From Pseudofrankia inefficax (lineage in GTDB: Bacteria > Actinomycetota > Actinomycetes > Frankiales > Frankiaceae), in the NCBI RefSeq assembly GCF_000166135.1, contig NC_014666.1:7874001-7938000 (forward strand): DNA of 64,000 nucleotides, in the 5' to 3' direction. The position numbers and the translations under genes are program-made. Positions 5,230-24,711 of this stretch are shown here, piece after piece; the first letter of the stretch is position 1, and every line of letters begins with the position of its first letter. The notes beneath the pieces were generated by a model that was not told where the DNA came from, searched no databases, and saw only the letters and a program-made list of their open reading frames with translations.

Positions 5230-5290
5230 GGAGCGGAGGCTCGGGGATTTGAACCCCGGATGGGCTGTAGACCCAAACCGCATTAGCAGT
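5230..5290. repeat. attL: 61-bp copy of the tRNA-Ser 3' end
   Basis: Base-for-base identical to 24651-24711. It holds the anticodon loop, variable arm, T arm and 3' acceptor strand of tRNA-Ser on the minus strand, but the sequence beyond 5290 diverges, so the 5' half is missing and this is not a functional tRNA. The identity boundaries are sharp: A versus G outside the left end, C versus G outside the right end. Confidence 0.93.
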
Positions 5291-5402
5291 CCTCTCGCGT
5301 CCGTCCTCGCCGGTCCGGGGCGTGGTCTGCCGACGGATACAGCCAGGTCAGAGAGGGTGTCTCGTCTGGCTCGGTCCGGCTGGACGCCTTGCGTCCGTGC
5401 AT

Positions 5403-5433
5403 TTGGTGCCAGCGCTGTGCCAGCAGTGCCAGC
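5403..5433. repeat. Candidate left arm-type integrase sites (three GTGCCAGC copies)
   Basis: GTGCCAGC occurs at 5406-5413, 5417-5424 and 5426-5433, 113 bp inside attL. Positions 5403-5425 match 24562-24584, 67 bp inside attR, at 21 of 23 bases in the same orientation. Short repeats with near-helical spacing just inside both ends of an element are what tyrosine integrases use as arm sites. Inferred from position and repetition only. Confidence 0.5.
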
Positions 5434-5454
5434 GCGCGACCGTGCTCGCTGCGG

Positions 5455-5646
5455 TCACCCTGCCGCCTTGTCTGGCCGGTGCTCGCCTATCCACTGCTCG
5501 ACGTCGGCAGGCCTCCAGAGGCGCACCTTGCCGTGCGCTACCGACGGCGCTGGGAAGCCGTCGCGGTGGGAGAGCTGGCGGGCGCGCTCGGCTGAGATGC
5601 CGAGTCGGCGGCCGATGTCGCCGGTAGTCCACACGTCGTCGCTCAC
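5455..5646 (-). CDS. AlpA/MerR-type helix-turn-helix protein (excisionase-like)
   Basis: A 63-aa protein with one winged helix-turn-helix: V-W-T-T-G-D-I-G-R-R-L-G-I-S-A-E-R-A-R-Q, then F-P-A-P-S-V-A-H-G-K-V-R-L-W and D-V-E-Q-W-I. The 'domain, G-F-P-x-P, R-L-W, D-V-x-x-W' order is typical of AlpA and Xis-like factors of integrative elements. It begins at a GTG at 5646 with no clear ribosome binding site, so it may be leaderless. It lies next to attL and is divergent from the 5797-9852 operon; the operator region 5659-5718 lies between them. It may act as recombination directionality factor, as repressor of the transfer operon, or both. Confidence 0.75.
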   Translation of the reverse strand: MSDDVWTTGDIGRRLGISAERARQLSHRDGFPAPSVAHGKVRLWRPADVEQWIGEHRPDKAAG

Positions 5647-5658
5647 GAGGACAGGGTA

Positions 5659-5687
5659 TTGCGTTACCCCAACCCCGTGTCTAGTAT
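5659..5687 (+). promoter_or_regulatory. Predicted promoter of the transfer operon
   Basis: TTGCGT (5659-5664), 17-base spacer, TAGTAT (5682-5687). The expected start of transcription falls inside the 12-8-12 palindrome at 5687-5718, about 100 bases before the first gene (GTG at 5797). Confidence 0.5.
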
Positions 5688-5718
5688 TGGGTCACCCCAA
5701 CCCCTTGGGGTGACCCAA
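5687..5718. promoter_or_regulatory. 12-8-12 perfect palindrome, probable operator
   Basis: TTGGGTCACCCC at 5687-5698 and GGGGTGACCCAA at 5707-5718 are perfect inverted repeats with an 8-base centre. A near copy of the left half plus centre lies 28 bases upstream (5663-5676 versus 5691-5704, 13 of 14 bases identical). It sits between the divergent AlpA-like gene and the transfer operon, over the predicted start point, which suits a repressor site. A transcribed hairpin is the alternative. Confidence 0.55.
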
Positions 5719-5796
5719 ATGTAGGCGGGCCCGGTCGGAGTTGCCTCTCCGGCCAGGCCCTAACGGAACCGACCTGACTCACCAGGGGGACCCGCT

Positions 5797-6249
5797 GTGA
5801 CAGACCTTCTCACCCCGACCCGCGATCCCTTCGCGGGCCTGGACCCGTTCGGCGCCGACACCGACGAGATGGCGGCCCGGTTCGCCGCCGTCGTCGCCGA
5901 CTTCACCCCGGCGCCCGCGCCGACCTGCCTGGGCTGCGGCCGGGCGCTGCGCTCGGCCCGGTCGATCGCGGCTGGCATGGGCCCGACCTGCCTGCGCAAC
6001 GCCCGCCGCCGTGCCGCCCTGCTGGCCGGCTCGTTCACGGACCGCCAGATCGAGGCCGCGGTCGAGGCCGTCGAGGACGGCGCCGTGATCCCGGCCGAGA
6101 CCCCTCGCGTCTGGCTCATCGTCGGCTCCAAGGGCGACGAGATCTACACGACCGACGGCGCGGTCTGCGACTGCCTCGCCGGACAGAACGGCCGCGCGTG
6201 CTGGCACCTGGCCGCGACCGCGCTCGTCACCCCGGCGGTGGCAGCGTGA
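5797..6249 (+). CDS. DUF6011/SWIM-type zinc-binding protein, first gene of the transfer operon
   Basis: A 150-aa protein starting at a GTG with AGGGGGA about six bases upstream. Two cysteine clusters are visible. The first is C-L-G-C-G-R-A-L-R-S-A-R-S-I-A-x-G-M-G-P-T-C at residues 46-68, matching the DUF6011 pattern found in many actinobacterial element and phage proteins. The second is C-D-C-L-A-G-Q-N-G-R-A-C-W-H near the C-terminus, a SWIM-like C-x-C...C-x-H zinc motif. It is likely a nucleic-acid or protein-binding accessory factor; its precise role is unknown. The stop overlaps the next start (GTGA), so the two are translationally coupled. Confidence 0.75.
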   Translation: MTDLLTPTRDPFAGLDPFGADTDEMAARFAAVVADFTPAPAPTCLGCGRALRSARSIAAGMGPTCLRNARRRAALLAGSFTDRQIEAAVEAVEDGAVIPAETPRVWLIVGSKGDEIYTTDGAVCDCLAGQNGRACWHLAATALVTPAVAA

Positions 6250-6611
6250 GCGCCGCGACGGCCACCCCGGCCCACATCCTGTCCGGACCATCGGTCGAAC
6301 GACGCTTGAGCGTCCTCAGCGACTTCGCCCGCGTCGCCACGATGGTCGGCAACACCCTGGACTTCGAGATCTTGTCCGACAAGTCGGTCGAGGTGCTCGC
6401 GACCCTGGCCGAGGTCGCCTACGGCGTCGCTGAGGCGCTGCTGGAGCGCGACGCGCTCGCCCAGTACGAGCGCGAGGGGATCTCGGCGGACGACGTCCCG
6501 GCGTCGGGCAGTCTGCCGGCGAAGGCCTGCGAGCGGCTCGCGGAGGCGTGCTACCTGCTCTATAGGGGCGAGATGCGCGCCCACTTCGCCGCCATTGAGG
6601 CCACCCGGTGA
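6246..6611 (+). CDS. Hypothetical protein of the transfer operon, 121 aa
   Basis: Begins at the GTG that overlaps the previous stop codon by four bases; the frame is open further upstream, but the coupled start is far more plausible. The protein is mainly helical with acidic and Leu/Ala-rich stretches (for example L-S-V-L-S-D-F-A-R-V-A and the E-V-L-A-T-L-A-E-V-A segment), with no recognisable catalytic motif or membrane segment. It is coupled to the following gene by another GTGA overlap. Function not recognised. Confidence 0.65.
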   Translation: MSAATATPAHILSGPSVERRLSVLSDFARVATMVGNTLDFEILSDKSVEVLATLAEVAYGVAEALLERDALAQYEREGISADDVPASGSLPAKACERLAEACYLLYRGEMRAHFAAIEATR

Positions 6612-6997
6612 GCGCCGCCGACCCGCGTCTTACCCTCGCGCTCGCCTGGGGCTCGGCCGTCCGCGCCGCCGACGTCGTCTCGCTGGGCCTCGGCCTGTGG
6701 GCCGGCCGCGGCGACTGGGCGAGCTGCTCGGTCGAGGCGCGCAACACGGCCGGCATCGAGGCTCTCGCGAACATCGACAAGGCGCTCGCCGAGCTGGCGG
6801 CCGTCCGAGACCAGATCCGCGACGAGGTCGACCGGGCCGAGGTGCCCCGGCGGATCGCGGCCGATGAGCGGTACCTCGCCGAGGCCGAGGAGCGCGGCGA
6901 TCAGCCGATGATCGGCTACTACTCGCACTACCTGACCGTGAACCGGGCCCGGCTCGCCGAGCTGGACCGGGCGGCGCGCGCCGGTGGTGTCCGGTGA
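6608..6997 (+). CDS. Hypothetical protein of the transfer operon, 129 aa
   Basis: Starts at a GTG overlapping the previous stop. Residues 50-115 are strongly helical and charged (A-N-I-D-K-A-L-A-E-L-A-A-V-R-D-Q-I-R-D-E-V and A-E-A-E-E-R-G-D), consistent with a short coiled coil. There is no cysteine cluster, signal peptide or transmembrane segment. The coupled arrangement suggests a small accessory protein made together with the translocase. Not recognised. Confidence 0.6.
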   Translation: MSAADPRLTLALAWGSAVRAADVVSLGLGLWAGRGDWASCSVEARNTAGIEALANIDKALAELAAVRDQIRDEVDRAEVPRRIAADERYLAEAEERGDQPMIGYYSHYLTVNRARLAELDRAARAGGVR

Positions 6998-7176: not shown

Positions 7177-7355
7177 TCCGCATCCTGGCCGCTCTGGCCG
7201 TCCTCGCTGTCCTGCTGCCCCTGCCGGGCGTCGCCCTGGCCCTGGTCGTCCTCGCGGCGACCGTGGCCGTGGGCGCGTTCGCCCGGTGGTCCTACCGGGC
7301 GGATCCGCCCGTCTGGCGGTCGCCCGGCCCGAACTGGTCCGGGAGGTTCGTGTGA
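7173..7355 (+). CDS. Small membrane protein, 60 aa (Spd-like position)
   Basis: Starts at the GTG overlapping the previous stop. Residues 3-45 form one long or two short hydrophobic helices (I-L-A-A-L-A-V-L-A-V-L-L-P, then L-V-V-L-A-A-T-V-A-V-G-A-F-A), followed by a short polar tail. Small hydrophobic proteins encoded immediately before the FtsK-type translocase are typical of Streptomyces plasmids and AICEs, where Spd proteins help intramycelial spread; that role is inferred from position and topology, not sequence match. Confidence 0.6.
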   Translation: MIRILAALAVLAVLLPLPGVALALVVLAATVAVGAFARWSYRADPPVWRSPGPNWSGRFV

Positions 7356-7783
7356 GCGCACGCGTGAAGCACGTGATCGTGCTGCCGATGCCGTGCACCG
7401 CCGGCCAGCTGCGCGCAGCCCTTGCCGGTCTCATCGACGACGCCCCGCTCGTCGATGTCGCCCTTGCTGGCAACGACGGCAAGCCGATCACGGTCGAGGG
7501 CCTGGCCGACGTCGCGCTGGTCATCGGCACGGCCGGCGGCGACCCGGTGGCGACGGTGGCGACCCCGGGCGGCGATCCTGTCGCTAGCCGGGCGCTGGCG
7601 CCGGCCGCCGCCGCGGCGCGGCCGACGGGCCGGAGCAAGCTGGCCGGCCTGGTCGCCGAGCTGCCCGCCGACGACGGGCGCAGCGCCCGCCAGCTCGCCG
7701 AGGATCTCGCCGCCGAGGCGGGCATCAAGCCGGCGTCGGCACGCCGGTACCTGACCGGCCTGCGGGCGGGTGGCGCCTCATGA
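7352..7783 (+). CDS. Hypothetical protein with C-terminal HTH-like region, 143 aa
   Basis: The GTG at 7352 overlaps the previous stop. The N-terminal ~70 residues look like a compact alpha/beta domain. The last 50 residues (K-L-A-G-L-V-A-E-L-P-A-D-D-G-R-S-A-R-Q-L, then A-G-I-K-P-A-S-A-R-R-Y-L) have the spacing of a helix-turn-helix of the replication-initiator or ParB-accessory kind. Its stop overlaps the ATG of the translocase gene, so it is likely to act with it. A DNA-binding partner of the translocase is a reasonable guess only. Confidence 0.6.
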   Translation: MSARVKHVIVLPMPCTAGQLRAALAGLIDDAPLVDVALAGNDGKPITVEGLADVALVIGTAGGDPVATVATPGGDPVASRALAPAAAAARPTGRSKLAGLVAELPADDGRSARQLAEDLAAEAGIKPASARRYLTGLRAGGAS

Positions 7784-9852
7784 CCGAGGCGACCACCGAC
7801 GTCGACACCCCGCCCGGCGGCCTGCTCGTCCCGGGCCCGTGGACGCCCGCACCAGTCGCCGAGCCGGATCCGCCAGCACCAGCACCAGCGGTGACGCGGC
7901 CGCCGCCGCGGCGGCCGGCGCTGGCCGCCGAGCCGCTCACCCTGCCGGCGTGGACCCGCGATGCCACGGTCGCCCGTGCGCGCGCCGCGCACGGTGCCCG
8001 CGTCGCCGGCCGCCTGGCCGCCCGCGGCACCGTGCGTTCCGTGCCGTCGGTGGTCGGCGGCGGGGTCCGGGCCGGCCGGGGCTGGTGGCGTTGGGTGCAG
8101 GCCGACGATCTCGCCGACGAGCTGCGCGGCCCGGACGGGAAGCTCGGCGAGAAGGTGTTCGTCATCCGCGACCACCGCAAGGCGCGCTGGTACCTGACCG
8201 GTGGGCTGCTGCTGACCGCCAGCGTCGGCGAGACGGTCGCCGCCTACACGGTGGGCGACGTCATCCCGGCCGTGTCGGGGCTGGTCGTCGCCGGGGCGTT
8301 CGCGATCGCCGGCCGACGCCGGGGCGGTACCGCCCCGGCCCTGCTCGGCGGCATCGAGCGGGACGTCCGGTTGGAGCTCGCGCCCGAGCACCTGAACGCC
8401 GCGTTCCGCGCGGCCGGGATGCTCAGGGCGGACGCGGCGCTGATCCTGCGCTCCCCCGTCGTGCGCGACCGGGCCGGACGGGGCTGGGAGGCCGTCTTCG
8501 ACCTGCCGATGGGTGGCGGGAAGACCGCGGCTCACGCGATCGCGAAGCGGGACGTCATCGCCGCCGAGCTGGGCGTCGACGAGATCCAGCTCATCATGAG
8601 CCGGATCCGCGCCAGGCAGGGCGGCAACGGCAAGCGCATCGCGTTCTGGGTCTGCGACGACGATCCCTACCTGGGGAAGCCGGTCGTCTCCCCGCTCGTC
8701 GACCTGGAGTCGTTCGACTTCTGGGGCCTGGTGCCGTTTGGCCAGGACGCCCGCGCCGAACGGATCGAGGTCGGCCTGCTCTGGCAATCCGCCTTCTTCG
8801 GCGGCCTGCCCCGGCGCGGGAAGACGTTCTCCATGCGGCTGCTCGTCGCCGCCGCCGTTCTGGACCCGTGGTGCCGCCTCTACGTCGCCGACGGCAAGGG
8901 CGGCGCGGACTTCCGCTCACTGGCCGGGGTCGCCCACCGCTACGTTCGCGGCGCCGACGAGGCCGACCTCGAGGCCTTCGAGGCGATGCTCGACGAGCTG
9001 ATCGCCGAGATGTCACGGCGGTTCGCACTGTTCGCGACGCTGCCCACGGCGGTCTGCCCGGAGGGCAAGCTGACGCCGGACATCATGCGGCGGTACAACC
9101 TGCCGCTGATCCCGGTGGTGATCGACGAGCTGCAGGAGTACTTCGAGGCGCTGGAGACCGAGAAGGACCGCGCCCGGATCATCGGGAAGCTGGCCCGGAT
9201 CGCCCGGCGCGGCCCGGCCGCTGGGTTCATCCCGGTGTACGCCAGCCAGCGGCCCGACGCGAAGTCGGTCCCGACCAAGCTGCGCGAGATCGTGACCTAC
9301 CGGTACTGCACGCAGGTCACGGACAAGACCAGCAGCGACATGGTGCTCGGCGACGGCAAGGCCGCGGCCGGCGCTGACGCTTCGATGCTGTCGGAGGATC
9401 ACGTGGGCGTCGGCGTGCTGGTCACCGGGCCGGCGTCGTTCGTCACCGTGAAGGCGGACCTGCTCGACAACCCGGCGTTCGAGGTGATCTGCCAGCGCGG
9501 CCGGAAGCTGCGGATCGCCGCGGGCACGCTGACCGGGCAGGCCTTCGGCGACATCGGGGCCGCCGCGTTCGAGGTCGGCTACGCCATCCCGCAGATCATC
9601 GGCGACGTGATGGAGGCATTCGGGTCCCGCACCCGCATCTGGACAGAAGACCTGCTCGCCGCCCTGGTCAACCTCGACGAGGACACGTACGGCGACTGGG
9701 ACGCCGACCGCCTGGCCGCCGAGCTGGCGGACGCTGGCGTGGTCCGCCACTCCAAGCAGGTGAAGATCGACGGGGTGAACCGGGCGGGCTACCTGCTGCG
9801 CGACGTCGAGGGCGCGATCCCGCCCGAGGTGCTCGCCGCCCGGCCGGTATAG
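7780..9852 (+). CDS. FtsK/SpoIIIE-type conjugative DNA translocase (TraB/TraSA-like)
   Basis: A 690-aa protein whose family forms a hexameric pump moving double-stranded DNA between mycelial cells. Residues ~1-60 are Pro-rich and flexible; residues ~140-185 hold two hydrophobic segments (W-Y-L-T-G-G-L-L-L-T and V-S-G-L-V-V-A-G-A-F-A-I). The Walker A motif G-G-L-P-R-R-G-K-T-F-S lies near residue 348 and Walker B V-V-I-D-E-L-Q-E-Y near 444, with an FtsK-type A-S-Q-R-P sensor region after it. The last ~75 residues (W-T-E-D-L-L-A-A-L onwards) resemble a winged helix, as in the DNA-recognition end of TraB. It closes a cluster of seven genes joined by four-base overlaps. No relaxase is nearby, as expected for this transfer type. 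Confidence 0.88.
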   Translation: MTEATTDVDTPPGGLLVPGPWTPAPVAEPDPPAPAPAVTRPPPRRPALAAEPLTLPAWTRDATVARARAAHGARVAGRLAARGTVRSVPSVVGGGVRAGRGWWRWVQADDLADELRGPDGKLGEKVFVIRDHRKARWYLTGGLLLTASVGETVAAYTVGDVIPAVSGLVVAGAFAIAGRRRGGTAPALLGGIERDVRLELAPEHLNAAFRAAGMLRADAALILRSPVVRDRAGRGWEAVFDLPMGGGKTAAHAIAKRDVIAAELGVDEIQLIMSRIRARQGGNGKRIAFWVCDDDPYLGKPVVSPLVDLESFDFWGLVPFGQDARAERIEVGLLWQSAFFGGLPRRGKTFSMRLLVAAAVLDPWCRLYVADGKGGADFRSLAGVAHRYVRGADEADLEAFEAMLDELIAEMSRRFALFATLPTAVCPEGKLTPDIMRRYNLPLIPVVIDELQEYFEALETEKDRARIIGKLARIARRGPAAGFIPVYASQRPDAKSVPTKLREIVTYRYCTQVTDKTSSDMVLGDGKAAAGADASMLSEDHVGVGVLVTGPASFVTVKADLLDNPAFEVICQRGRKLRIAAGTLTGQAFGDIGAAAFEVGYAIPQIIGDVMEAFGSRTRIWTEDLLAALVNLDEDTYGDWDADRLAAELADAGVVRHSKQVKIDGVNRAGYLLRDVEGAIPPEVLAARPV

Positions 9853-9930
9853 GGGCCCGCCCCTGCCTCGCCGTCGCCGTCGTCCCTGCCGGCGGTGACG
9901 TTCGCCAACGCCACCCAGTAGACGCCCCTC

Positions 9931-10213
9931 TCTACGGCTGTAGACGGCCCGGTAGTGCCCGCTGACCTGCGACGTAGCGGCCGTAGAGGGGAGGCAGTGC
10001 CGTACACCTACGGCCCCTCAGAGGCTCTCGACGCCCACGACATCAGCCGCGAGCGGAGATCACCATGCCCAAGACCACGACCACGCACCACCAGCCCGAG
10101 ACGGTCGAGGAGTTCAGCGAGCGCGTCCTCTACGGCCCCGGCGGCTTCTACACGACGGGCGGCTGGACACCCGAGCGGCGCGCCCGCCTGGCCCCGATCA
10201 TCGCGGCCGTAGA
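9931..10213. repeat. Four copies of TCTACGGC/GCCGTAGA, candidate transfer-recognition region
   Basis: TCTACGGC occurs at 9931-9938 and 10129-10136, and its complement GCCGTAGA at 9980-9987 and 10206-10213. The first pair forms an inverted repeat over a 41-base loop in the gene-free stretch directly after the translocase gene. The other two lie in the following small ORF. TraB-type pumps recognise short 8-bp repeats in a clt locus, often near the tra gene, so this is a candidate; an operator is the alternative. The rest of 9853-10064 shows nothing else. Confidence 0.4.
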
Positions 10214-10247
10214 GGCGCGGCAGGCCGTCGCCGCACAGCCCCGCTAG
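10065..10247 (+). CDS. Small hypothetical protein, 60 aa
   Basis: An ATG start with GGAG seven bases upstream. The protein is polar, with a His/Thr-rich start (T-T-T-T-H-H-Q-P-E) and a short helical C-terminus (R-A-R-L-A-P-I-I-A-A-V-E-A-R-Q). No domain recognised. It follows the translocase after ~210 bases containing repeated TCTACGGC motifs, two of which lie inside this gene. Confidence 0.5.
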   Translation: MPKTTTTHHQPETVEEFSERVLYGPGGFYTTGGWTPERRARLAPIIAAVEARQAVAAQPR

Positions 10248-10251: not shown

Positions 10252-10890
10252 CTAGCCCGGGTGATCGAAGGCGGCCGGCCAGGTCTTGCGTCGGACGAGC
10301 TTGCCGGCCTCACCTTCGCGGTAGACGGTGATCACGCCGTCGCTGTTGCGAAGCACGGCGTAGCCGATGCCCTTGTCGATCTCGACCGTCGAGCTGGCAC
10401 GGTCCACCACGTCGGGTGTGAAGCCCTCCCGGTCGGCGCGACGCAGGTAGGCACTGCGGGCCCGCAGCAGCATGCGATCCGCATAGAGATCGGACTCGTC
10501 CGGACGGGGAAGCCGGTCGCCGGCCGGTGGTGACTCGCTGGTGCTGATCTCGGCCAGGTCGCGGTTCAGGATCCTGGCCACGGCGGCGCGCAGTCCGTAG
10601 GGAAGTGAGGCCACCGTCGGCGACGGGCGTGGCGCGTTCCAGCCCAGCCCATGCTGCCAAGCGACCGCGCGCCCGAGCAGAACCCAGACCTCGTGCTGAC
10701 TCTTTCGGGGTCCCCTTTTCCAGCCGCGCACCCAGGTGTTGATCAGCCACGGATCGGCGGTCGGAACCTCAAAGACGAGGCAGGGGGTGTCAGGCCGGAC
10801 GGCGCCGCTGTACGTCGGCGGCAACGGCTTCGCGACGTATGCGGGCGGCTCTGGGCGGCGGCGCTGGTACCGGCTCCTACCGAAGCTCAC
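10252..10890 (-). CDS. Hypothetical protein, 212 aa
   Basis: No family recognised. The N-terminus is basic (S-R-Y-Q-R-R-R-P-E-P-P). The middle contains W-L-I-N-T-W-V-R-G-W-K-R-G-P, a helical region with A-A-V-A-R-I-L-N-R-D-L-A, and a C-terminal segment that could form a small beta domain (G-Y-A-V-L-R-N-S-D-G-V-I-T-V-Y). It overlaps the HTH gene 10887-11150 by four bases and is transcribed with it, convergent to the transfer operon. The HTH partner suggests an accessory role in regulation or excision; this is inference. Confidence 0.6.
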   Translation of the reverse strand: MSFGRSRYQRRRPEPPAYVAKPLPPTYSGAVRPDTPCLVFEVPTADPWLINTWVRGWKRGPRKSQHEVWVLLGRAVAWQHGLGWNAPRPSPTVASLPYGLRAAVARILNRDLAEISTSESPPAGDRLPRPDESDLYADRMLLRARSAYLRRADREGFTPDVVDRASSTVEIDKGIGYAVLRNSDGVITVYREGEAGKLVRRKTWPAAFDHPG

Positions 10891-11150
10891 GACGCATCCG
10901 TCGGCGCCTCGTCCCGCGGCTGACGGTTCTCGGCGATCCAGGCCGCGACCTTGTCTTCATCCCATAGCCGGCCGGTGCGCCCTGTCTGCTCGGGCGCCGG
11001 GAACGACGGACGGCGGCTGATCTGGTCCGCGCGCTCTCTGGAGACCGTGCCAGTGGGCGACGTCGGCACGAGTAGATCCGCGACGTCAGAGATCGAGATG
11101 AGCCTTCCCACCCCTTGCACCCTGTGGGGTTCACACATGGGGATTGGCAC
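10887..11150 (-). CDS. Helix-turn-helix protein, excisionase-like
   Basis: An 87-aa frame; the real start may be one of the GTG codons about 11-14 residues in, because family-like sequence begins at R-L-I-S-I-S-D-V-A-D-L-L. The order S-D-V-A-D-L-L, E-R-A-D-Q-I, F-P-A-P and L-W-D-E-D-K-V-A-A-W-I matches MerR/AlpA-type DNA-binding proteins of integrative elements. It is coupled to the 212-aa gene downstream and is divergent from the 11262-11913 genes, with the 11126-11172 control region between them. It may autoregulate or act as a recombination factor. Confidence 0.7.
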   Translation of the reverse strand: MPIPMCEPHRVQGVGRLISISDVADLLVPTSPTGTVSRERADQISRRPSFPAPEQTGRTGRLWDEDKVAAWIAENRQPRDEAPTDAS

Positions 11151-11261: not shown

Positions 11262-11444
11262 ATGAGCACGAGCATGCCCGAGCCGGGCCAAGACGTCGAG
11301 CCGGGTGCCGGCGACGACTGGCCGTGTAGCTGGGACTTCACGAGCGTCGCCACCGACGACGACCTACCGCCCTCCGCGCAGCACCATCGGGTATCCATCG
11401 ACCCGGCCGCCCTGCGCGCCCTGGACCGCGGGGCCGGCCAGTGA
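11262..11444 (+). CDS. Small acidic hypothetical protein, 60 aa
   Basis: The ATG at 11262 follows a strong AGGAGGG, although about ten bases away. The protein is acidic (G-D-D-W-P-C, A-T-D-D-D-L-P-P) with no recognised domain. It is coupled by GTGA to the next gene and is the first of three co-transcribed small genes convergent on the whiB-like gene. Its size and acidity would fit an inhibitor or mimic protein, but there is no direct evidence. Confidence 0.55.
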   Translation: MSTSMPEPGQDVEPGAGDDWPCSWDFTSVATDDDLPPSAQHHRVSIDPAALRALDRGAGQ

Positions 11445-11656
11445 CCGACGAGCAGCGGGCCCGGCTGCTGCACCAGATGGCGACGAGCTACGCCAGCCGG
11501 CAGAACCCGCGCGACCGGCACGTACTCGTGCGCCTGGTCGGCGGCGAGCCCGTGGACGCGGTGATCTGCCTAACGCCCGAGGCCGCGTTGCTCGTCGCGG
11601 ACGCGATGGAGCTCCAGCCGAGCGACTTCACGATCGTCATCGGGCGGGAGATGTAG
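11441..11656 (+). CDS. Hypothetical protein, 71 aa
   Basis: The GTG start overlaps the previous stop. The protein has an N-terminal helix rich in Gln/Arg (E-Q-R-A-R-L-L-H-Q-M) and a C-terminal hydrophobic half (V-I-C-L-T-P-E-A-A-L-L-V-A-D-A-M-E-L). No family recognised. It sits in the middle of the three-gene cluster. Confidence 0.5.
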   Translation: MTDEQRARLLHQMATSYASRQNPRDRHVLVRLVGGEPVDAVICLTPEAALLVADAMELQPSDFTIVIGREM

Positions 11657-17523: not shown

Positions 17524-17531
17524 GATCGAAC

Positions 17532-18024: not shown

Positions 18025-18428
18025 GAGCCGGTGAAGCCGAGGCCGGGCCGCGGCGTCGCCGTCCGGTTCAGCTCGCCGAGCTCGGCCGCGGCCCGGCGGC
18101 CCTCCGCCCAGCTCTCCGACGTCGCACGGGCCGCCGCGCCGTTGGTCGCCGCAGCCTTGGCCGCCGCTTCGGCGATGAACCGCCCCTGCTCGTCGCGCCG
18201 GGCCACCATGGCCGGGTCGGCCGCCTCGGCGGCGCGCCGAGCCAGCGCGGCCACGCCGCCGTCGACGAGAGCGCCGTGCACCTGCAGCTTGGCCAGTACC
18301 GCGCCTGCCTCCAGACCGCCCAGCGGCTCGGAACGGGCGAGGACATGCGCGGCCACGTCGGCGGTGGCCTGCTGGCGAGCGGCAGCCAGCGCGGCCGGGT
18401 CCGTCAGCAGCTTGTAGTCGAACGCCAT
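18021..18428 (-). CDS. Hypothetical phage-like protein, 135 aa
   Basis: The ATG at 18428 has GGAAG about seven bases upstream and was preferred to an upstream in-frame start. The protein begins M-A-F-D-Y-K-L-L-T-D-P-A-A-L-A-A-A-R and is almost wholly Ala-rich helix, with E-A-A-A-K-A-A-A-T-N-G at residues ~90-100. Composition fits a coiled-coil or scaffold-like protein, but no family was recognised. It is coupled to the two small genes after it. Confidence 0.55.
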   Translation of the reverse strand: MAFDYKLLTDPAALAAARQQATADVAAHVLARSEPLGGLEAGAVLAKLQVHGALVDGGVAALARRAAEAADPAMVARRDEQGRFIAEAAAKAAATNGAAARATSESWAEGRRAAAELGELNRTATPRPGLGFTGS

Positions 18429-18494
18429 CAGTAGGCTTCCTTTCGGATCATGGTCATGCGGCCGGCGCCCCGATGCGGGCGCCGGCCGCATCCG

Positions 18495-18833
18495 TCAGCG
18501 GCCTCGCCGCCGGGTCGAGCTACGCGGAGCGGGCCGCGGCGTGCTGGTCGTACCGGCCGGCAGGAACGTGCCGTTCGCCGCGCCGTTCACGAGCGCGTTG
18601 CGGTCGACCTGCGTCAGGCCCTGCGCGCTGCCGAGGACGGCCAGGCCGCCATCGCCCTGCGCAGTCGCGCCCCGGGTCCTGCTCACCGGGCTACCGGCCT
18701 GCGCCGCGTTGGCCACGACGGCCAGGCTGGACGGCCGCGCCGTCCCGGGCAGGCCGCCCGGCGTGGTCGGAGAGATCGTTCCCTCCGGCAGGTACCGCCT
18801 GGCCGGCTTCGCGGGCTTGCGTGGTGTCGCCAT
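18495..18833 (-). CDS. Hypothetical basic protein, 112 aa
   Basis: The ATG at 18833 has an upstream AGGGGG about ten bases away. Both ends are very basic (P-R-K-P-A-K-P-A-R-R-Y at the start, R-S-S-T-R-R-R-G-R at the end) around a Gly/Ala/Thr-rich low-complexity middle. It is probably disordered and nucleic-acid-binding. It lies between the terminase-like gene and the 135-aa gene, in the same direction. The 18834-18960 interval is gene-free. Confidence 0.5.
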   Translation of the reverse strand: MATPRKPAKPARRYLPEGTISPTTPGGLPGTARPSSLAVVANAAQAGSPVSRTRGATAQGDGGLAVLGSAQGLTQVDRNALVNGAANGTFLPAGTTSTPRPAPRSSTRRRGR

Positions 18834-18960: not shown

Positions 18961-19701
18961 TCAGCTTGACATGATCGCTTCGAGTGGCAAGGCGTCCAGC
19001 TCGGCGCCGACCGCCGCATTGATCGCGGGCAGATCGATGTTCCAGCCCAAGCGCCGGGCAGCGCCCGCCAGAACCTGGATCCACAGGTCGGCGCGCATCT
19101 CGGCCAGCCGCACCTGACGCTCCGCGATCCCGGCCGCGACCGCCTTCGTCGCCAGGTCGGCGGCGAGCTTGCGCTCGCTCTGCTCCAGCGCGGCCAGGGC
19201 GCGGATCTGCTCGCCCGTGTCGACCGTGCCGCCGCGGCCGTCGCTCGCGCGTGTCCGCCCGACGAGCACGGCCACACCACCGGTCGCCAGCACCTGCCGC
19301 AGCGCCGCACGCGCAGCCTCGACACCAGCGCTCCCGTCGACCAGCTCGTCCAGCTCGCCCTCAAGCGCGGGCGCAGACTCGGCACGGGCCAGCGCTTCGG
19401 CAGCGTCATACGCGCGCTGCAGCAGATCAGCGAGCATCCGGGCGCGGGCGTAGGTCACCGTCAGCAGCCGCAGCAGCGTTTCCCCCGGGTCCACCAGCGG
19501 TTGATCTAGGTCCCACGCCAGCACCGTGCGCCGAACCTCCACCTTCGCGCGGATCTTGGCGGTCGACTGACCGCCATGCGAGCGGCACCGCTTCGTGCCC
19601 GACAGCACGACCTGGCCGCACGGCTCGCCGCGCTTGTTGTGGCCGCCGAACTCGCCGCAGCGGGGCGGCTTGCCGAACTCTCGGACGGTGGCCTGACTCA
19701 T
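18961..19701 (-). CDS. Terminase small subunit-like protein
   Basis: A 246-aa protein whose N-terminus carries the Cys/His pattern found in many actinophage small terminases: C-G-E-F-G-G-H-N-K-R-G-E-P-C-G, then R-C-R-S-H-G-G. After it come V-D-P-G-E-T-L-L-R-L-L, a long helix, T-G-E-Q-I-R-A-L-A-A-L-E-Q-S-E-R and K-A-V-A-A-G-I-A-E-R-Q-V-R-L-A-E, the typical C-terminal half of those proteins. In phages the small subunit selects the packaging site for the large terminase; no large subunit is present here. Phage satellites use such proteins to redirect helper packaging, which is a possibility rather than a conclusion. The start overlaps the previous stop (ATGA). Confidence 0.65.
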   Translation of the reverse strand: MSQATVREFGKPPRCGEFGGHNKRGEPCGQVVLSGTKRCRSHGGQSTAKIRAKVEVRRTVLAWDLDQPLVDPGETLLRLLTVTYARARMLADLLQRAYDAAEALARAESAPALEGELDELVDGSAGVEAARAALRQVLATGGVAVLVGRTRASDGRGGTVDTGEQIRALAALEQSERKLAADLATKAVAAGIAERQVRLAEMRADLWIQVLAGAARRLGWNIDLPAINAAVGAELDALPLEAIMSS

Positions 19702-19952: not shown

Positions 19953-20282
19953 AGTCCCATGTCCCACCCCCTTAAAGAAGGGGGGGTGGGACGGGACTGG
20001 ACTGCGGTCCCATGGGACTGGTTGGGACTGGTGGGACTGGGGTTCAGGCAACGGTGCCTCCGAGGACATAGAAGGGGCGTTGCTGGGTGCCGTCGTTGCG
20101 TAGCGCGCCACGGCTGACCAGCAGGTTCAGCGCACGGTAGAAGGTCGTCCGGGGCATTTCGGCGACGTCGCGGAGCTGGGTTCCGGTGGCGCCGGTAGTC
20201 CCAAACGAGTCCCGAACGATCTTCAGTAGCCGTGTCTCGGACTCGGCGAGTTCGCGATCAGTCCCAAGATCGAAATGGGACT
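19953..20282. repeat. Cluster of seven TGGGACT/AGTCCCA repeats with a hairpin
   Basis: TGGGACT is at 20013-20019, 20023-20029, 20032-20038 and 20276-20282; AGTCCCA is at 19953-19959, 20197-20203 and 20260-20266. The three central copies are spaced 9-10 bases apart like iterons. A ten-base stem, TCCCACCCCC (19962-19971) with its complement at 19982-19991, lies beside them. The cluster spans the 3' end of the helicase gene and the gap after it, where a replication origin or a regulator site could lie. Confidence 0.45.
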
Positions 20283-21495
20283 CGATCGTGACTGAATCCG
20301 CACTGGCCACTAGACGGAGCGTGAGTTCGTCCTCGCGCGGCCCTTCCTTGCGCTTGCTCCTGGTCATCTTGATCAGCGCCGCGTCGCCGTCGACTCCGTA
20401 CACCGTGTCGACGGCCGCCTCCAGCGCGCTGGAGCCGCGGACGGTCGACCGGTCCTTGCCGGTGTGGTGGACCAGAAGCACCGCGGTGTCGTCGGTCGCG
20501 CGGCGCACCAGTTCGAGCGCATCGACGGCGATGCCGACGTCGCGGGCCGAGTTCTCGTCTGCGCCGACGATCGAGCGGGCGAACGTGTCGACGACGACCA
20601 GGCGGTACCGCTCGGCTGCGACCAGATCGACGAGTCCGTCGACCGCGGCGGCATCCAGCAGCTGCACCGGCTCGGGTAGCACGTCGAGCCATCCATCGTC
20701 GACCGTGACGCCGTTGGCGGCCTCCCACGCGCCGATCCGCGCGTCCAGGCCGAACGCGCCCTCGGCGGCGACGTACAGCACCCGCGCGCAGTCGACGGCT
20801 CGGCCGAGCCACGGCGTTCCGGTCGCGACGCAGCAGGCCCATGACAGGGCGACGAAGGACTTGCCGACGGCGGGCGCGCCGGCCAGCAGTGCGACGGTGC
20901 GGCGGTCGATCGTGTTCTTGATCAGCGACTGGGGACGGGGCAGCCTCGCCAGAGCGGACCGGTCGAGCACCTTGGCGCGCAGCACGGGCGTCGCTGGGCC
21001 GTCCGCCGCGTCGAGTTCGTCGAGCGTCGCGCGATGCTGCCGGAGGGCCTCGTCCATGTCGCCACCGGTCGCGATGACCTGGCGGAGCCGATCGGCCGCT
21101 TCGATCGAGCGCCGCCGCTTGGCCAGCGCCCGGACTACGCGGGCGTAGTAGCCGCCGTTCTCCCGGCTCGGCGTCGATTCGAGAAGGGTGTGCAGATAGG
21201 CCGCGCTGCCGATGCGGTCCAGCTCGCCGCGGGCGATGAGTTCGGCCGCAACCGTAATCGCGTCGACCGGCGTCTCGTCACGGGAAAGGCCGAGCATGAC
21301 GCCGTAGATGGTCGCGTGGCGCGACTGGTAGAAGTCGTCCGCGGTGAGCCCGCATTCGTGGATCCTGTCGAACCCCTGGCGGTCGCCGCTGTACTGCAAG
21401 AGCGCGCCGAGGGTCGCTCTTTCGGCGTCGAGGTCGTGGGGCAGTAGGGCGCCCAGATCGATGGATGGCGCGGCCCGCACCGGAGCAAGGCTCAC
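20044..21495 (-). CDS. DnaB-N / RepA-type AAA helicase with C-terminal winged helix, 483 aa
   Basis: Starts at the GTG at 21495, with GAGGAG eight bases upstream. Residues ~15-125 match the DnaB N-terminal domain (L-L-P-H-D-L-D-A-E-R-A-T-L-G-A-L-L-Q and D-A-I-T-V-A-A-E-L). Residues ~185-390 form a RecA-like AAA domain of the RepA/AAA_25 type, with Walker A G-A-P-A-V-G-K-S near 205, Walker B L-V-V-V-D-T-F near 300 and L-L-V-H-H-T-G-K-D. The last ~60 residues (E-S-E-T-R-L-L-K-I-V onwards) form a winged helix. It is probably the replication helicase/initiator of the element, replacing the RepSA or primase-polymerase of better known AICEs. It lies in a leftward operon after the HTH genes. Confidence 0.82.
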   Translation of the reverse strand: MSLAPVRAAPSIDLGALLPHDLDAERATLGALLQYSGDRQGFDRIHECGLTADDFYQSRHATIYGVMLGLSRDETPVDAITVAAELIARGELDRIGSAAYLHTLLESTPSRENGGYYARVVRALAKRRRSIEAADRLRQVIATGGDMDEALRQHRATLDELDAADGPATPVLRAKVLDRSALARLPRPQSLIKNTIDRRTVALLAGAPAVGKSFVALSWACCVATGTPWLGRAVDCARVLYVAAEGAFGLDARIGAWEAANGVTVDDGWLDVLPEPVQLLDAAAVDGLVDLVAAERYRLVVVDTFARSIVGADENSARDVGIAVDALELVRRATDDTAVLLVHHTGKDRSTVRGSSALEAAVDTVYGVDGDAALIKMTRSKRKEGPREDELTLRLVASADSVTIESHFDLGTDRELAESETRLLKIVRDSFGTTGATGTQLRDVAEMPRTTFYRALNLLVSRGALRNDGTQQRPFYVLGGTVA

Positions 21496-21722
21496 CCGCA
21501 GGTCTCCTCGTTGACCGGCAGGTCGGCGAGAACGGCCGCGCTGATCGGGTTGTCCAGCCCGCAGCGGCACAGGTGCAACCACACGAGCCGGGCCGAGCGG
21601 CGGCGCCGGTAGGTGTCGAGGTCCGCAACGGTTGCGCTACCTTGGTCCCGACCCCGCCGCCCAGCTAGGTCACCGTTCCCCGCCCCGGTCTCCGACTGGG
21701 GCGGTGGCGTTTCTGCGGTCAT
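21492..21722 (-). CDS. Small hypothetical protein, 76 aa
   Basis: Overlaps the helicase start by four bases and the preceding HTH gene likewise. The N-terminal half is polar; the C-terminal half has L-V-W-L-H-L-C-R-C-G-L-D-N-P-I-S and a last Cys, so a zinc site is conceivable. It is tightly coupled to the helicase, suggesting a replication accessory role. No family recognised. Confidence 0.55.
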   Translation of the reverse strand: MTAETPPPQSETGAGNGDLAGRRGRDQGSATVADLDTYRRRRSARLVWLHLCRCGLDNPISAAVLADLPVNEETCG

Positions 21723-21973
21723 CCGGCGGCCCGCTCCCCCGCGCCTTCCTCACTCGACGGCGAGGTCGGGTAGAGCAGCGCGATCAGGTCATGGGTCGGG
21801 ATGCGGATACGCCGTCCGACCTTCAGCACGCGGGTCAACGTCCACGTGCCGGTGCGGATCGCGTCATAGATCGACGACTCGGCGAATCCGGTGATCTGCG
21901 CGGTGTGCGGAACATCGGTCGTGGGCCCGAGCGCGGCGATCCCCTGGGGCCCGGTCAGGCCGGGCGGGGTCAT
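21719..21973 (-). CDS. Helix-turn-helix protein, excisionase-like
   Basis: The ATG at 21973 gives 84 aa. It contains T-A-Q-I-T-G-F-A-E-S-S-I-Y-D-A-I-R-T-G-T-W, then V-G-R-R-I-R-I-P-T-H-D-L-I-A-L-L-Y, the standard AlpA/MerR wing and 'R-I-P-x-x-D-L' end. It sits just after another HTH gene and before the helicase gene, with four-base overlaps. Candidate excisionase or copy-number regulator. Confidence 0.75.
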   Translation of the reverse strand: MTPPGLTGPQGIAALGPTTDVPHTAQITGFAESSIYDAIRTGTWTLTRVLKVGRRIRIPTHDLIALLYPTSPSSEEGAGERAAG

Positions 21974-22233
21974 GCCGGCACCTTCTCGCCGCCTTGGTCC
22001 TGGGCAGCCAGCCACGCGGCGACCTCAGTCCGGCGGTACCGGACGATGCGCCGGCCGGCCCGGTACCAAGGCGGGCCCTCCCCGCGGTGTCGCCACTGCC
22101 GCACGGTGTCCGGCGCCGCCCCGATGGCTCGGGCGACGGCCAGGGTATCCATCGGCTCGTCGTCCAGGACTGCCGAGAGACGTCCCGTGGGATCGGCCAT
22201 GGTCGGACCATGGGGTCGGAAATCTGTGACCAT
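21970..22233 (-). CDS. Helix-turn-helix protein, AlpA-like
   Basis: An 87-aa frame from the ATG at 22233; an internal ATG at 22200 is equally possible and lies inside the 22197-22213 palindrome. Helix-turn-helix: T-L-A-V-A-R-A-I-G-A-A-P-D-T-V-R-Q-W, then G-P-P-W-Y-R-A-G-R-R-I-V-R-Y-R-R-T-E-V-A-A-W-L. This is the classical MerR-like element regulator pattern. It is first in the leftward operon and divergent from the XRE regulator gene, so the two may control each other. Confidence 0.75.
   Translation of the reverse strand: MVTDFRPHGPTMADPTGRLSAVLDDEPMDTLAVARAIGAAPDTVRQWRHRGEGPPWYRAGRRIVRYRRTEVAAWLAAQDQGGEKVPA
22197..22213. promoter_or_regulatory. 17-bp near-perfect palindrome between divergent regulators
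   Basis: CCATGGTC and GACCATGG flank a central G (22197-22213). It lies between the divergent HTH and XRE genes, a natural operator position. It is just upstream of the leftward gene if that starts at 22200 or 22233. Confidence 0.4.
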
Positions 22234-22314
22234 GACTCGGCACCATACACGGACCTGGCATGCAAGTTGATGCCGTGGGGTCAGATATTCGGACCGTGCG
22301 CTACTGTGCTAGTT

Positions 22315-23058
22315 GTGACAGATCCCGCGACCGCGAGACCGCTGCGCTTCGTGATCGGCGAAGGGGTTCGTCGCGTGCGCGAGGCACACGGCGTCCGCCA
22401 GGAAGAGGTGTCACGGGCCGCACGCGCCTACGGCCTGGCTTGGGCCCGGTCTCGCATCGCGGCGCTTGAGCGAGGCGATAAGGCGGTGAGCGCCGACGAA
22501 CTGACCTTGCTCCCACTGATCATGAGCGCCGCCTGCACCCGTCCAGTGGCTTTGTCCGAGCTAGTCGCACCGGACGTCTGGGTGCGGGTTGGCGACCGGG
22601 CGATGCCAGGTAGCGACATTGCTGCCATCTGGGCAGGAGGGATGCCACTACGCGGCAGGAACGTGCCCGGAACGCTGCAGGACCTGATCAGCGAGCAAGC
22701 AGATGCCGAGGCGGCCCGACCTGACTTCGATCGTCTCGTCGCCCTAGGAGCGTTCGGCGAACACGATGGCGAAGAACTGCGCGGCCTTTGGGCGACCGGC
22801 GCAAGCCTGGCCGAAGAGCGGGCCGCAACGAGACTGAGCGAACGACCGCGGGTCGTCGCCTACCTCGCCCGCGCGGTCTGGGGCGCGTCGCTGGACGAAG
22901 AGCGCGATCGCATCGTCGCCGAACGCGATCCAGACGCCAGCCCGGACCGCCGCCGCGCCTTGCGCGGCCAGGTGAACCGCGAGCTTGTCGAGGTACTCGC
23001 TGCCGAGATCGCCCGGCGAGAGAAGCCCGCAACCGAGAGCGCCGCCCCGACGACGTAG
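22315..23058 (+). CDS. XRE-family transcriptional regulator
   Basis: A 247-aa protein from a GTG at 22315. A helix-turn-helix of the XRE type spans residues ~12-70: I-G-E-G-V-R-R-V-R-E-A-H-G-V-R-Q-E-E-V-S-R-A-A, then A-R-S-R-I-A-A-L-E-R-G-D-K. The rest is helical, with a long charged C-terminus (D-E-E-R-D-R-I-V-A-E-R-D-P). There is no clear ribosome binding site, and TACTGT seven bases before the GTG could be a -10 of a leaderless message. It lies directly upstream of the integrase (12-bp gap), so it probably controls integration or replication genes. Confidence 0.8.
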   Translation: MTDPATARPLRFVIGEGVRRVREAHGVRQEEVSRAARAYGLAWARSRIAALERGDKAVSADELTLLPLIMSAACTRPVALSELVAPDVWVRVGDRAMPGSDIAAIWAGGMPLRGRNVPGTLQDLISEQADAEAARPDFDRLVALGAFGEHDGEELRGLWATGASLAEERAATRLSERPRVVAYLARAVWGASLDEERDRIVAERDPDASPDRRRALRGQVNRELVEVLAAEIARREKPATESAAPTT

Positions 23059-23069
23059 CAGGGGGGAAC

Positions 23070-24605
23070 GTGAGCAAGCCGTTCCGGAAGTGCTGGTGCC
23101 GCGACCCGCAGACCAAGCGCGAGTACCGCCGTGGCCAGTGCCCGGACTACGACCGCAAGGGCCACGCGAAGTGGTACGGCCGCCTGGAGGCGCCGAAGGG
23201 CGCGACCGGCCGGCGTCGTCAGCCGCTGATCGGCCCGTTCGACAGCGAGAAGGAAGCAAAGCTCAAGCTCGCCGCTGCAGTCGGCCGGACGGCCGGCGGT
23301 ACCTACTCGGATGACCAGAAGATCACGTTCGCGCAGTACGCCGACCGGCGCCTTGAGTGGCGCGAGGCGACGGCGGCCACGGGTGAAGGGCTGAAGCGCT
23401 CCACGCTGGACGCCGAGCATGAAGCGCTCACGCTCTACCTGAAGCCCGGTCTCGGGCACCTGCGGCTGGTGGAGATCCGCGATCGTCACGTACGCGATCT
23501 GTACGCGGCGATGCGTCTGCTGAACCGAGACGAGGCCGCGGCAGGCGAACTCGCCGAGCTCGTGCGGCGCCTCGCCGACGCCCGCGCCGTCCGCGATGGC
23601 AAGCGCATCCACAACCGGCCACTGTCCGAGTCACGCATCCGCCGGATCCACGCGGTGTTGACCGGCATCCTGAACGACGCGGTGAAGCTGGCGAAGATCC
23701 TGGACGCCAACCCGGCAGAGGACATCTTCCGCAGCGCGGGCGGCGCGAAGCGGCGCGGCCGGGCTCGGCCGCTGCTGTGGTCGGCCGAGCGGACCGAGCG
23801 GTGGGTCGAGACTGGCCACGTCCCGGGCAAGGTGATGGTCTGGGCGCCCGCGCAATGTGGCGCGTTCCTGGACTTCAGCGAGGCCAGCGGCGAGCGCCTG
23901 CACGCTCTGTTTCACCTGGACGCCTACTACGGCCCGCGGCGCGGCGAACTCGTCGGCCTGGAGCGCTCCGACCTCTCGATCGAACGGCGCCGGCTACACG
24001 TCCGCCAGGCGGACACCGACGGCGACCTCGACGAGGGCAAGACGGAGAACGCCGACCGGATGATCGTTTTTGACGAGGACACGGCCGCCGTTCTGAAGGC
24101 CGAGCGCAAGCGCCAGGCCGCCGAGCGCCTCCACTGGGGCGAGGCGTACGAGGACTCCGGCCGGGTGTTCACTCGCGAGGACGGCACCGCGCTGCGGCCG
24201 GCCAACGTGTCCGAGCGGTTCGCCGCGCTGGTGACCCGATACGGCGCGATCCGGACCCGACTCGCCAAGCCTGGCTGGACGCCGGAGCGCACCGCCGCGC
24301 AGTTCCGGGTGCCGATCGAGGCGGTACAGATCGCCGCCGAGTCGGGGCCGCTGCCGCCGATCCGCTTCCACGACCTGCGGCACGGCGCGGCGACGATGCT
24401 GCTCGCCTCTGGCGCCGAGATGAAGCTCGTCTCCGACGTCCTCGGGCACGCGTCCGCGGCGTTCACGAGCGACGTGTACGCGGTCGTCGCCGAGGAACTG
24501 GCCGAGGCCGCAGCCGTGCGCATCGCGGCGTTCGTGCCGCGCCACAACAAGATCAAAGCCGTTGGTGCCAGCAATGTGCCAGCACGGGGCATCAACGGAT
24601 CTTGA
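23070..24605 (+). CDS. Site-specific tyrosine integrase
   Basis: A 511-aa protein starting at a GTG after GGGGGG. The N-terminal ~60 residues are basic with C-W-C-R-D-P and K-G-H-A-K-W-Y-G, as in AICE integrases whose arm-binding domain precedes the core. The catalytic domain contains Y-Y-G-P-R-R-G-E-L-V-G-L (Arg), R-F-H-D-L-R-H-G-A-A-T-M-L-L, and V-L-G-H-A-S-A-A-F-T-S-D-V-Y (nucleophile Tyr). All key residues are present. Its 3' end lies 45 bases from attR in tRNA-Ser, and the second arm-type repeat (24562-24584) is inside its coding sequence. It is presumably active on the 61-bp att repeat. Confidence 0.93.
   Translation: MSKPFRKCWCRDPQTKREYRRGQCPDYDRKGHAKWYGRLEAPKGATGRRRQPLIGPFDSEKEAKLKLAAAVGRTAGGTYSDDQKITFAQYADRRLEWREATAATGEGLKRSTLDAEHEALTLYLKPGLGHLRLVEIRDRHVRDLYAAMRLLNRDEAAAGELAELVRRLADARAVRDGKRIHNRPLSESRIRRIHAVLTGILNDAVKLAKILDANPAEDIFRSAGGAKRRGRARPLLWSAERTERWVETGHVPGKVMVWAPAQCGAFLDFSEASGERLHALFHLDAYYGPRRGELVGLERSDLSIERRRLHVRQADTDGDLDEGKTENADRMIVFDEDTAAVLKAERKRQAAERLHWGEAYEDSGRVFTREDGTALRPANVSERFAALVTRYGAIRTRLAKPGWTPERTAAQFRVPIEAVQIAAESGPLPPIRFHDLRHGAATMLLASGAEMKLVSDVLGHASAAFTSDVYAVVAEELAEAAAVRIAAFVPRHNKIKAVGASNVPARGINGS
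24562..24584. repeat. Candidate right arm-type integrase site
   Basis: Two GTGCCAGC copies (24565-24572, 24576-24583) spaced 11 bases apart. The whole 23-bp stretch matches 5403-5425 near attL at 21 of 23 bases, in the same orientation. It lies inside the last codons of the integrase gene. Confidence 0.5.
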
Positions 24606-24613
24606 AACGACAA

Positions 24614-24645
24614 CAGGGCTCCCGCGCCGTAGCGCGAAAGCCCTG
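24614..24645 (+). terminator. Hairpin after the integrase gene
   Basis: CAGGGCT (24614-24620) pairs with AGCCCTG (24639-24645), with an inner CGCG stem. It lies between the integrase stop and attR and probably ends integrase transcription before the antisense tRNA gene. Confidence 0.6.
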
Positions 24646-24650
24646 GTCAG

Positions 24651-24711
24651 GGAGCGGAGGCTCGGGGATTTGAACCCCGGATGGGCTGTAGACCCAAACC
24701 GCATTAGCAGT
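24651..24711. repeat. attR: 61-bp repeat overlapping tRNA-Ser
   Basis: Identical to 5230-5290. Runs from four bases outside the tRNA 3' end to the 5' side of the anticodon loop. The intact gene at this end means the element restored the tRNA on integration. Confidence 0.93.

Follow-up and report, generated by a model that had tools for sequence, protein, structure and literature searches.

The PICI-like elements (PLEs; PICI, phage-inducible chromosomal island) of Vibrio cholerae are satellites that carry tmp and tac genes, and the virions of PLE11 contain the satellite's own tape measure protein (TMP) (PMC12987554). Deletion of tmp cuts PLE transduction by 96, 99 and ~99.9% in three PLEs, and that paper, published in Nature in 2026, states that a tape measure gene was unreported in any other satellite (PMC12987554). 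The main text of a paper on actinomycete integrative and conjugative elements (AICEs) does not contain the term 'tape measure' (PMC3218068), and a literature search judged largely by title turned up no AICE-like element described with a TMP. Here, an integrated element of the soil actinomycete Pseudofrankia inefficax is described that carries a single tail gene, encoding a TMP, together with an FtsK/TraB-type DNA translocase. It lies in a stretch of 64,000 nucleotides (hereafter the window; positions 7,874,001 to 7,938,000 of NC_014666.1) inside a single 8,815,781-bp contig, and was compared with 35 genomes of the order and with 393 genomes in a survey of the class. The occurrence of a lone TMP in related elements points to possible travel within another virus, with part of the tail made by the elements themselves. 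The favoured reading, to which a probability of roughly 0.5 is given, is that these are satellite-like elements that insert their own TMP into the tails of helper phages, joined in this case to a conjugation-type translocase.

The element is bounded by two copies of a 61-nt perfect direct repeat, spaced 19,421 bp start to start, and thus measures 19.4 kb. Its left arm runs on the plus strand from an excisionase-like gene (itself on the minus strand) through DUF6011 and small genes to the translocase, with small genes after it. A minus-strand block holds, in order, WhiB, the TMP, a noncoding site, a XerC-like recombinase, small genes, the phrog_3678 gene, a DnaB-N/AAA_25 helicase and helix-turn-helix (HTH) genes. 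At the right end an XRE regulator and then the integrase, both on the plus strand, run up to the tRNA. The principal features are as follows.

5230..5290, no strand: left attachment site (attL), first copy of the 61-nt perfect direct repeat
5455..5646, minus: 63-aa protein, HTH_17-like below threshold, probable excisionase with homologues in related elements
7780..9852, plus: FtsK/TraB-like DNA translocase, 690 aa (PF01580; Walker A and B)
11910..12209, minus: WhiB-family regulator (PF02467, 50.7 bits)
12206..16258, minus: TMP, 1350 aa (PF10145, PHROGs)
16342..16417, no strand: noncoding site upstream of tmp, common to a phage contig (L011 6063-6137; nucleotide comparison)
16591..17538, minus: XerC-like tyrosine recombinase, 315 aa (Pfam, PHROGs)
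18961..19701, minus: phrog_3678 protein with sub-threshold HGGxSTG zinc motif (PHROGs), the small terminase of the initial annotation
20044..21582, minus: DnaB-N and AAA_25 helicase, replication module (Pfam, PHROGs)
22306..23058, plus: XRE-type regulator (HTH_3 below threshold), with homologues in five of eight other clustered elements
23070..24605, plus: tyrosine integrase beside the tRNA (Pfam, PHROGs)
24651..24711, no strand: right attachment site (attR), second copy of the 61-nt repeat, overlapping the tRNA-Ser gene
24654..24744, minus: tRNA-Ser(GCT), the integration site (tRNA call)

As in AICEs, the element holds a PF00589 integrase with attachment sites, here the 61-nt repeats, and a transfer protein of the FtsK/SpoIIIE type (PF01580, 31.1 bits against a cut-off of 24). 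RepAM (DUF3631) and Prim-pol domains were not found in Pfam scans of the element, which has DnaB-N and AAA_25 instead. As in satellites of the PICI/PLE type, it has an integrase, a regulator and a replication gene of its own, an incomplete set of virion genes and, as in PLEs specifically, its own TMP. No family of large terminase (TerL), portal, capsid, tube or baseplate was found in the scanned element proteins by Pfam, PHROGs or NCBIfam, and the joint presence of TerL, portal and capsid that defines a prophage is accordingly lacking in these scans; PHROGs covered ten reading frames, the small frames of the left arm were scanned with Pfam alone, and a few frames below 90 aa fell outside the scans. 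The initial annotation had described a tRNA-integrated element with an FtsK/TraB-type translocase, integrase, HTH and WhiB genes and a 1350-aa TMP, devoid of portal, capsid, large terminase, tube and baseplate genes. The repeats and family matches bear out this description, as do, within the proteins scanned, the absences. The second tyrosine recombinase (16591-17538) and the helicase (20044-21582) had gone unmentioned.

The TMP is encoded by an uninterrupted 1350-aa frame (PF10145, 1.8e-28, 100.2 bits), and tape measures make up 16 of the 17 PHROG matches. The protein contains three hydrophobic segments and six PG[AS] motifs at an exact 30-residue spacing (residues 1013 to 1163). It matches 225 of the 50,697 records of a phage collection, at 25-30% identity over at most a quarter of its length among the matches listed. 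The only relative returned from IMG/VR, at 53% identity, lies on one siphophage contig, and this contig was again the only one returned when viral contigs were searched with a TMP profile; the same profile gave 133 pattern matches in genome contigs, none of which was confirmed.

The siphophage contig (IMGVR_UViG_3300005937_000073) carries TerL, a weak portal match, head decoration and tail genes. When the 27 element proteins were compared with the contig, 1.4 kb of it left out, only the TMP and the phrog_3678 protein matched and the other 25 did not; the element's DnaB had no match in viral contigs. A third match is the noncoding DNA before tmp (74% over 80 columns), whose placement relative to the phrog_3678 gene agrees in order and orientation between the window and the phage contig. 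Exact blocks of 15 and 14 bases within it occur in 19 and 26 IMG/VR contigs, 44 in total, and the siphophage contig is the only one on both lists; the spacing of the two blocks is 48 nt in the window and 47 nt in the phage contig. Folding of the surrounding stretch is stronger than in 200 of 200 shuffles (z -4.2). The 14-base block was absent from the related elements fetched up to the time of that search. The site may serve in packaging, as an origin or as a promoter. Two more short nucleotide matches, of 24 and 31 nt (E ~9e-4), link element and contig. The TMP, the phrog_3678 protein and the noncoding site thus all resemble one phage lineage.

The gene at 18961-19701 matches PHROG 3678 (2.9e-22), a family labelled 'unknown function', and its HGGxSTG zinc motif scores 25.4 bits, below the cut-off of 29. 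The initial annotation called this gene terminase-small-subunit-like, a stronger name than these matches carry. The protein is 67% identical to its counterpart on the siphophage contig, the sole IMG/VR relative returned, and matches none of the 50,697 phage records; its relative in G129 (genomes are cited by survey number) matches 20 of them. Genes of this family are found close to the packaging genes of phages. In the prophage-like loci of G129 and G116 it lies immediately before TerL, followed in G129 by a portal gene.

The lone TMP recurs in related elements. Within the order, PF10145 occurs at 17 places in 16 of the 35 genomes, seven of them read here as lone and nine in larger gene clusters; the place in G017, on a 4.8-kb contig, stands outside this division. 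PHROGs, applied to four of the nine larger clusters, recognised virion genes in G023 and G024 and a weak minor-tail match in G001, with no virion match for the single gene tried in G025. The phrog_3678 family was found in 11 of the 35 order genomes and 39 of the 393 class genomes. A TMP accompanies it in five (G011, G002, G012, G009 and G033) of the 11 order contexts outside the window. For the 28 class genomes outside the order, 20 contexts were fetched and eight left out; TMPs were sought in the 20 by gene size and similarity, with PHROGs run on four giant genes. The giant genes of loci L087, L088 and L084 fit a TMP in size and were rejected after PHROGs. Gene calls in the survey loci came from a custom script.

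A lone, uninterrupted TMP is thereby found in eight elements from two actinobacterial families, the window element and seven others. The initial annotation had regarded relatives without a TMP as the sign of neutral debris; seven further elements carry one, and six of these seven also match the phrog_3678 family. Both ends are clear in the window element, G328 and G009, and in G028 by a short repeat only; an end is unseen in G012, G002, G011 and G033. The G328 element, from another family, spans 23.8 kb at tRNA-Lys with a 43-nt repeat and contains DUF6011, an FtsK-like gene, a 1505-aa TMP, DnaB and an integrase. The G009 element covers 32.5 kb and has a 27-nt repeat with tRNA-Ser. In G028, of the same genus as the window, copies of a 17-nt repeat enclose ~14 kb with an integrase, XRE, primase, WhiB and a 727-aa TMP. 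Inside these four elements, the genes of at least 400 aa encode integrase, helicase, TMP, FtsK-like proteins, an HTH-TPR regulator (G009; assigned by similarity to a G020 protein) and two unknowns of 405 aa (G328) and 402 aa (G028) that have no PHROG match. Integrases vary among the TMP elements, being tyrosine recombinases in G009 and G012 and members of a serine-recombinase similarity group in G002 and G011. A conserved 159-aa gene precedes the TMP in G011, G002, G012 and G009; its profile matches seven of the 393 class genomes, those four strongly and three at only ~7e-4. The elements are taken to be a group of actinobacterial integrative elements with a satellite-like build: integrase, excisionase, repressor, their own helicase or primase, usually a gene known from the packaging region of phages, and no capsid, to which one tail gene, the TMP, is added.

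Several observations were made beside these loci. A third tRNA-Lys attachment-site copy at G328:C19:29411 (L099), 4 kb left of the element and separated from it by a recombinase-like gene, indicates tandem integration, and a partial second copy of the integrase end at the left attachment site in G020 (C257:138424-138863, L047) appears to be a remnant of an earlier tandem element. The G033 TMP shares its stretch with a TIR-NACHT protein (808 aa, L044:3358-5784), probably a defence gene, and a row of unknown genes between the G033 TMP and phrog_3678 (C111:107316-110772, L034), two of them without a PHROG match, could be unrecognised tail genes. Near the far end in G009 (C221 ~39080-39460) and G002 (C154 ~36890-38020) lie dense CACCG-type repeats, with an 8-mer present 9-12 times per 300 nt, that could be an origin or a packaging or transfer site. 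Short loci in other actinobacterial genomes (L089, L090, L092-L095, L098) combine a phrog_3678 match with small-serine-recombinase-like and tyrosine-recombinase-like genes and often a large unassigned gene; no TMP was seen in them, and they are possibly a widespread satellite type.

The TMP genes show signs of constraint. Calculated by the NG86 method, nonsynonymous over synonymous divergence (dN/dS) is 0.17/0.61 between the G011 and G012 TMPs and 0.29/1.08 between those of G002 and G009, ~0.27 in both pairs; the window TMP against the phage TMP (dN 0.45, dS 0.77) is less indicative of constraint. When a tree was built from the PF10145 region, the window TMP grouped with the phage TMP (100/96), and that of G028 fell among TMPs from larger gene clusters (100/99). 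By phmmer, no link was detected between the G328 TMP and those of the other elements. Tryptophans at an 11-residue spacing are a typical tape-measure pattern, and the G012 TMP has a tryptophan every 11 residues, fourteen times. Though seemingly of no use by itself, the TMP gene has stayed open across differing integrases, probably following separate captures.

The translocase has a Walker A motif at residue 342 and a Walker B-like motif at 446. Homologues were found in G020, G013 and G012, those of G020 and G013 being ~70% identical to it. It matches 103 of 72,556 plasmid records. The best match (61.8% over 71%) lies on a circular plasmid of Streptomyces decoyicus, 29,140 bp long, that contains a 14.6-kb unit twice, primase genes and no annotated TMP. 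The gene was rejected as a phage gene, none of the 50,697 phage records matching it; yet a homologue lies in the prophage-like G023 locus (1.6e-65). Among the seven other lone-TMP elements, one has a close homologue (G012, after contig extension) and one a distant FtsK-like gene (G328). The initial annotation had proposed to look for relatives that keep translocase, TMP and small terminase together. An FtsK-like gene, a TMP and phrog_3678 indeed coexist in three elements (window, G012 and G328), of which G328 fits in part: its FtsK-like gene belongs to a different family (phrog_31069, 5e-7; strongest match phrog_24831, of unknown function), and its phrog_3678 match is N-terminal only.

The motif GCCGTAGAGG, with one mismatch allowed, occurs 15 times in the window against 6.1 expected, and 1 of 100 shuffles had as many. 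No cluster of it was found in the other elements searched, with one copy in G011 and none in seven others. Given this and the shuffles, the repeats are suggestive only as transfer-site (clt-like) candidates. With a pump and candidate transfer repeats, the window element may have two routes of transfer. Tentatively, and well short of even odds, the same 19-kb element could move from hypha to hypha by its TraB-type pump and from colony to colony in a helper with a rebuilt tail, as a member of an actinobacterial family whose TMP was captured more than once from different phages.

For a TMP without a tube, the simplest use would be in the tail of another phage. We infer dependence on a helper, packaging, a chimeric tail and conjugation, in the following way. 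A helper siphophage would enter the cell or be induced, whereupon the element would excise and replicate. Its DNA would then enter helper heads through recognition by the phrog_3678 protein, the shared noncoding site or both. Inside the tail tube made by the helper, the element TMP would replace that of the helper, setting the tail length and supplying the ejected protein, and the outcome would be chimeric particles carrying the element. In the window element, as also in G012 and perhaps G328, the FtsK/TraB-type translocase could also move DNA between hyphae.

A number of findings weigh against this reading. PF10145 searches of the host genome return the element's own TMP as the sole match and give no sign of a resident helper of that type. 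Neither a tail chaperone nor a hub was recognised in the window by family scans, a weak tool for genes of this kind. For the 159-aa gene the phage collection returned nothing; its best model reaches pLDDT 83.8 and four others 44-52, with no match at E <= 0.001 in either a viral or a PDB library, and only its position suggests a tail chaperone. As for packaging, the phrog_3678 protein may be something other than a small terminase: between the phage relative and TerL, an annotated small terminase stands in LuckyBarnes, a DNA-binding protein in Montesquieu and an HTH gene in BIM BV-113, while in TripleJ an HTH gene follows the relative and in Crosby TerL does not appear in the stretch shown. The fold model of the phrog_3678 protein is poor (pLDDT 65), the family match covers only positions 11-83 (G328) and 12-56 (G033) of 213, and the order survey found no match in G028. 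The G028 stretch has a second repeat, probably there by chance, that is at least as long as the 17-nt one. Among 500 dinucleotide shuffles, one reached the score of the noncoding-site match. On the tree, the 'lone' label changes at least twice by supported branches, a count that carries a long-branch warning; two changes would most simply be two captures, and one gain and one loss are also possible. Finally, in the more distant G023, head, connector and TMP genes are combined with an FtsK-like module, and an ancestor with a fuller virion set is thus possible.

The satellite reading competes with four others. An unlikely one, but a real rival, is that the TMP, with or without the 159-aa gene, serves as an anti-phage weapon that poisons or mis-measures the tails of invaders and protects the host, with no part in the transfer of the element. 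Interference with tails by mobile elements exists, as Rta of PLE11 acts on the helper TMP (PMC12987554) and the Tai family blocks tail assembly (PMC11364771); G028 moreover has a TMP and no phrog_3678 match, and a TIR-NACHT gene is also present in the G033 element. Rta, however, is a blocker of 80 aa only (PMC12987554), and a decoy would not need to be a full-length TMP that has repeats and hydrophobic segments and, in relatives, matches phage lytic families.

The plain alternative, remains of prophages fused to AICEs with the TMP as neutral debris, is about as unlikely. Fuller prophages do occur among the related loci, and in G023 an FtsK-like module accompanies genes for head, connector and TMP. 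Recurrence nevertheless disfavours decay, as do the long open TMP frames in eight elements, dN/dS of ~0.27 in two pairs and the attachment-site repeats that flank three elements, a fourth being flanked by a short repeat; at least two state changes on the tree point the same way, and no other virion gene was recognised inside the elements, where part of the genes was family-scanned. In the G023 locus itself (C92:79174-98229; L111, L120), a major head protein, connector and TMP run co-directionally into homologues of FtsK and of the 7286-7783 protein beside three tRNA genes, possibly uniting virion genes and a TraB-like pump in one element.

Improbable, too, is an ordinary AICE-like element in which the phage gene is passing cargo or is coupled to a regulator and serves the host. 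In the window the start of WhiB and the stop of tmp share 4 nt (GTGA), and in G028 the TMP likewise overlaps WhiB by four bases with the two genes in the opposite order, which would tie tmp to the regulation of the element or host; this view does not account for the shared noncoding site or for the recurrence of one and the same virion gene on its own. Least likely is recruitment of the TMP to conjugation, its membrane and wall-lytic parts helping the TraB-like pump to pass DNA through the cell wall: TMP and FtsK-like genes do co-occur in the window, G012 and G328, but the association is not obligate, since the stretches read of G009, G002, G011, G033 and G028 contain a TMP and nothing homologous to the window FtsK (an end is unseen in G002, G011 and G033), and G020 and G013 carry FtsK and phrog_3678 with no TMP seen (left end of G013 unseen).

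The remaining features of the window element are as follows.

5797..6249, plus: DUF6011 protein with weak SWIM, homologue in the G328 element
6246..6611, plus: small protein, homologue in the G028 element (1e-31)
6608..6997, plus: small protein without informative family (Pfam scan)
7286..7783, plus: small protein adjoining FtsK, sub-threshold DUF6225/DUF4232, homologues near FtsK in G020 and G023
9929..10215, no strand: four GCCGTAGAGG copies directly after ftsK (three exact, one with one mismatch), candidate clt-like repeats
10252..10890, minus: 212-aa protein without family (Pfam, PHROGs, NCBIfam)
10887..11150, minus: 87-aa HTH/excisionase-like protein (similarity to homologues of the 63-aa protein; no Pfam match)
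11441..11656, plus: 71-aa protein, homologue in the G033 element
17633..18491, minus: three small proteins without assigned function (family scans)
18495..18833, minus: 112-aa protein without assigned function (family scans)
21719..22200, minus: two small HTH_17 proteins, one above the Pfam cut-off

A long palindrome, CCCATACCaGTACCtGGTACcGGTATGGG, at 16517-16545 of the window, between tmp and the second recombinase gene, is a candidate operator or recombination site. Outside the element, the gene adjoining tRNA-Ser (window 24750-29861) encodes a 1703-aa FtsK-domain protein (PF01580, 190 bits; YscD-like below threshold) that is perhaps EccC-like.

Among known systems, the siphophage contig shares with the element relatives of the TMP and phrog_3678 protein and the noncoding site, and has TerL, head and tail genes besides. 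AICEs of Frankia and other actinobacteria share the tyrosine recombinase, excisionase-like genes and PF01580 transfer gene; the window element differs in its DnaB-N/AAA_25 replication gene, found in place of RepAM (DUF3631) or Prim-pol, and in the added TMP (PMC3218068). The Streptomyces satellites Mulch and Flayer likewise form satellite-helper systems in actinomycetes, but are described in the abstract as encoding encapsidation genes, none of which was recognised in the window element (PMC10690885). Putative tmp genes, as here, are noted in capsid-forming PICIs (cf-PICIs) and PLE-like elements (PMC12987554); no capsid gene was recognised here, in contrast to the cf-PICIs. PLEs resemble the window element in gene content. 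Like it, they are integrated, lack a full virion of their own and possess a TMP while most other tail genes are missing; they differ in having a tail chaperone, a baseplate hub gene in PLE11 and a contractile helper, ICP1 (PMC12987554). The elements described here reside in actinomycete hosts, the window TMP is nearest to that of a siphophage, and some of them carry conjugation-type translocases. If the reading is true, the recurrent lone TMP would extend tail piracy to another phylum, and those elements that combine it with a conjugation-type pump would link conjugative elements and phage satellites.

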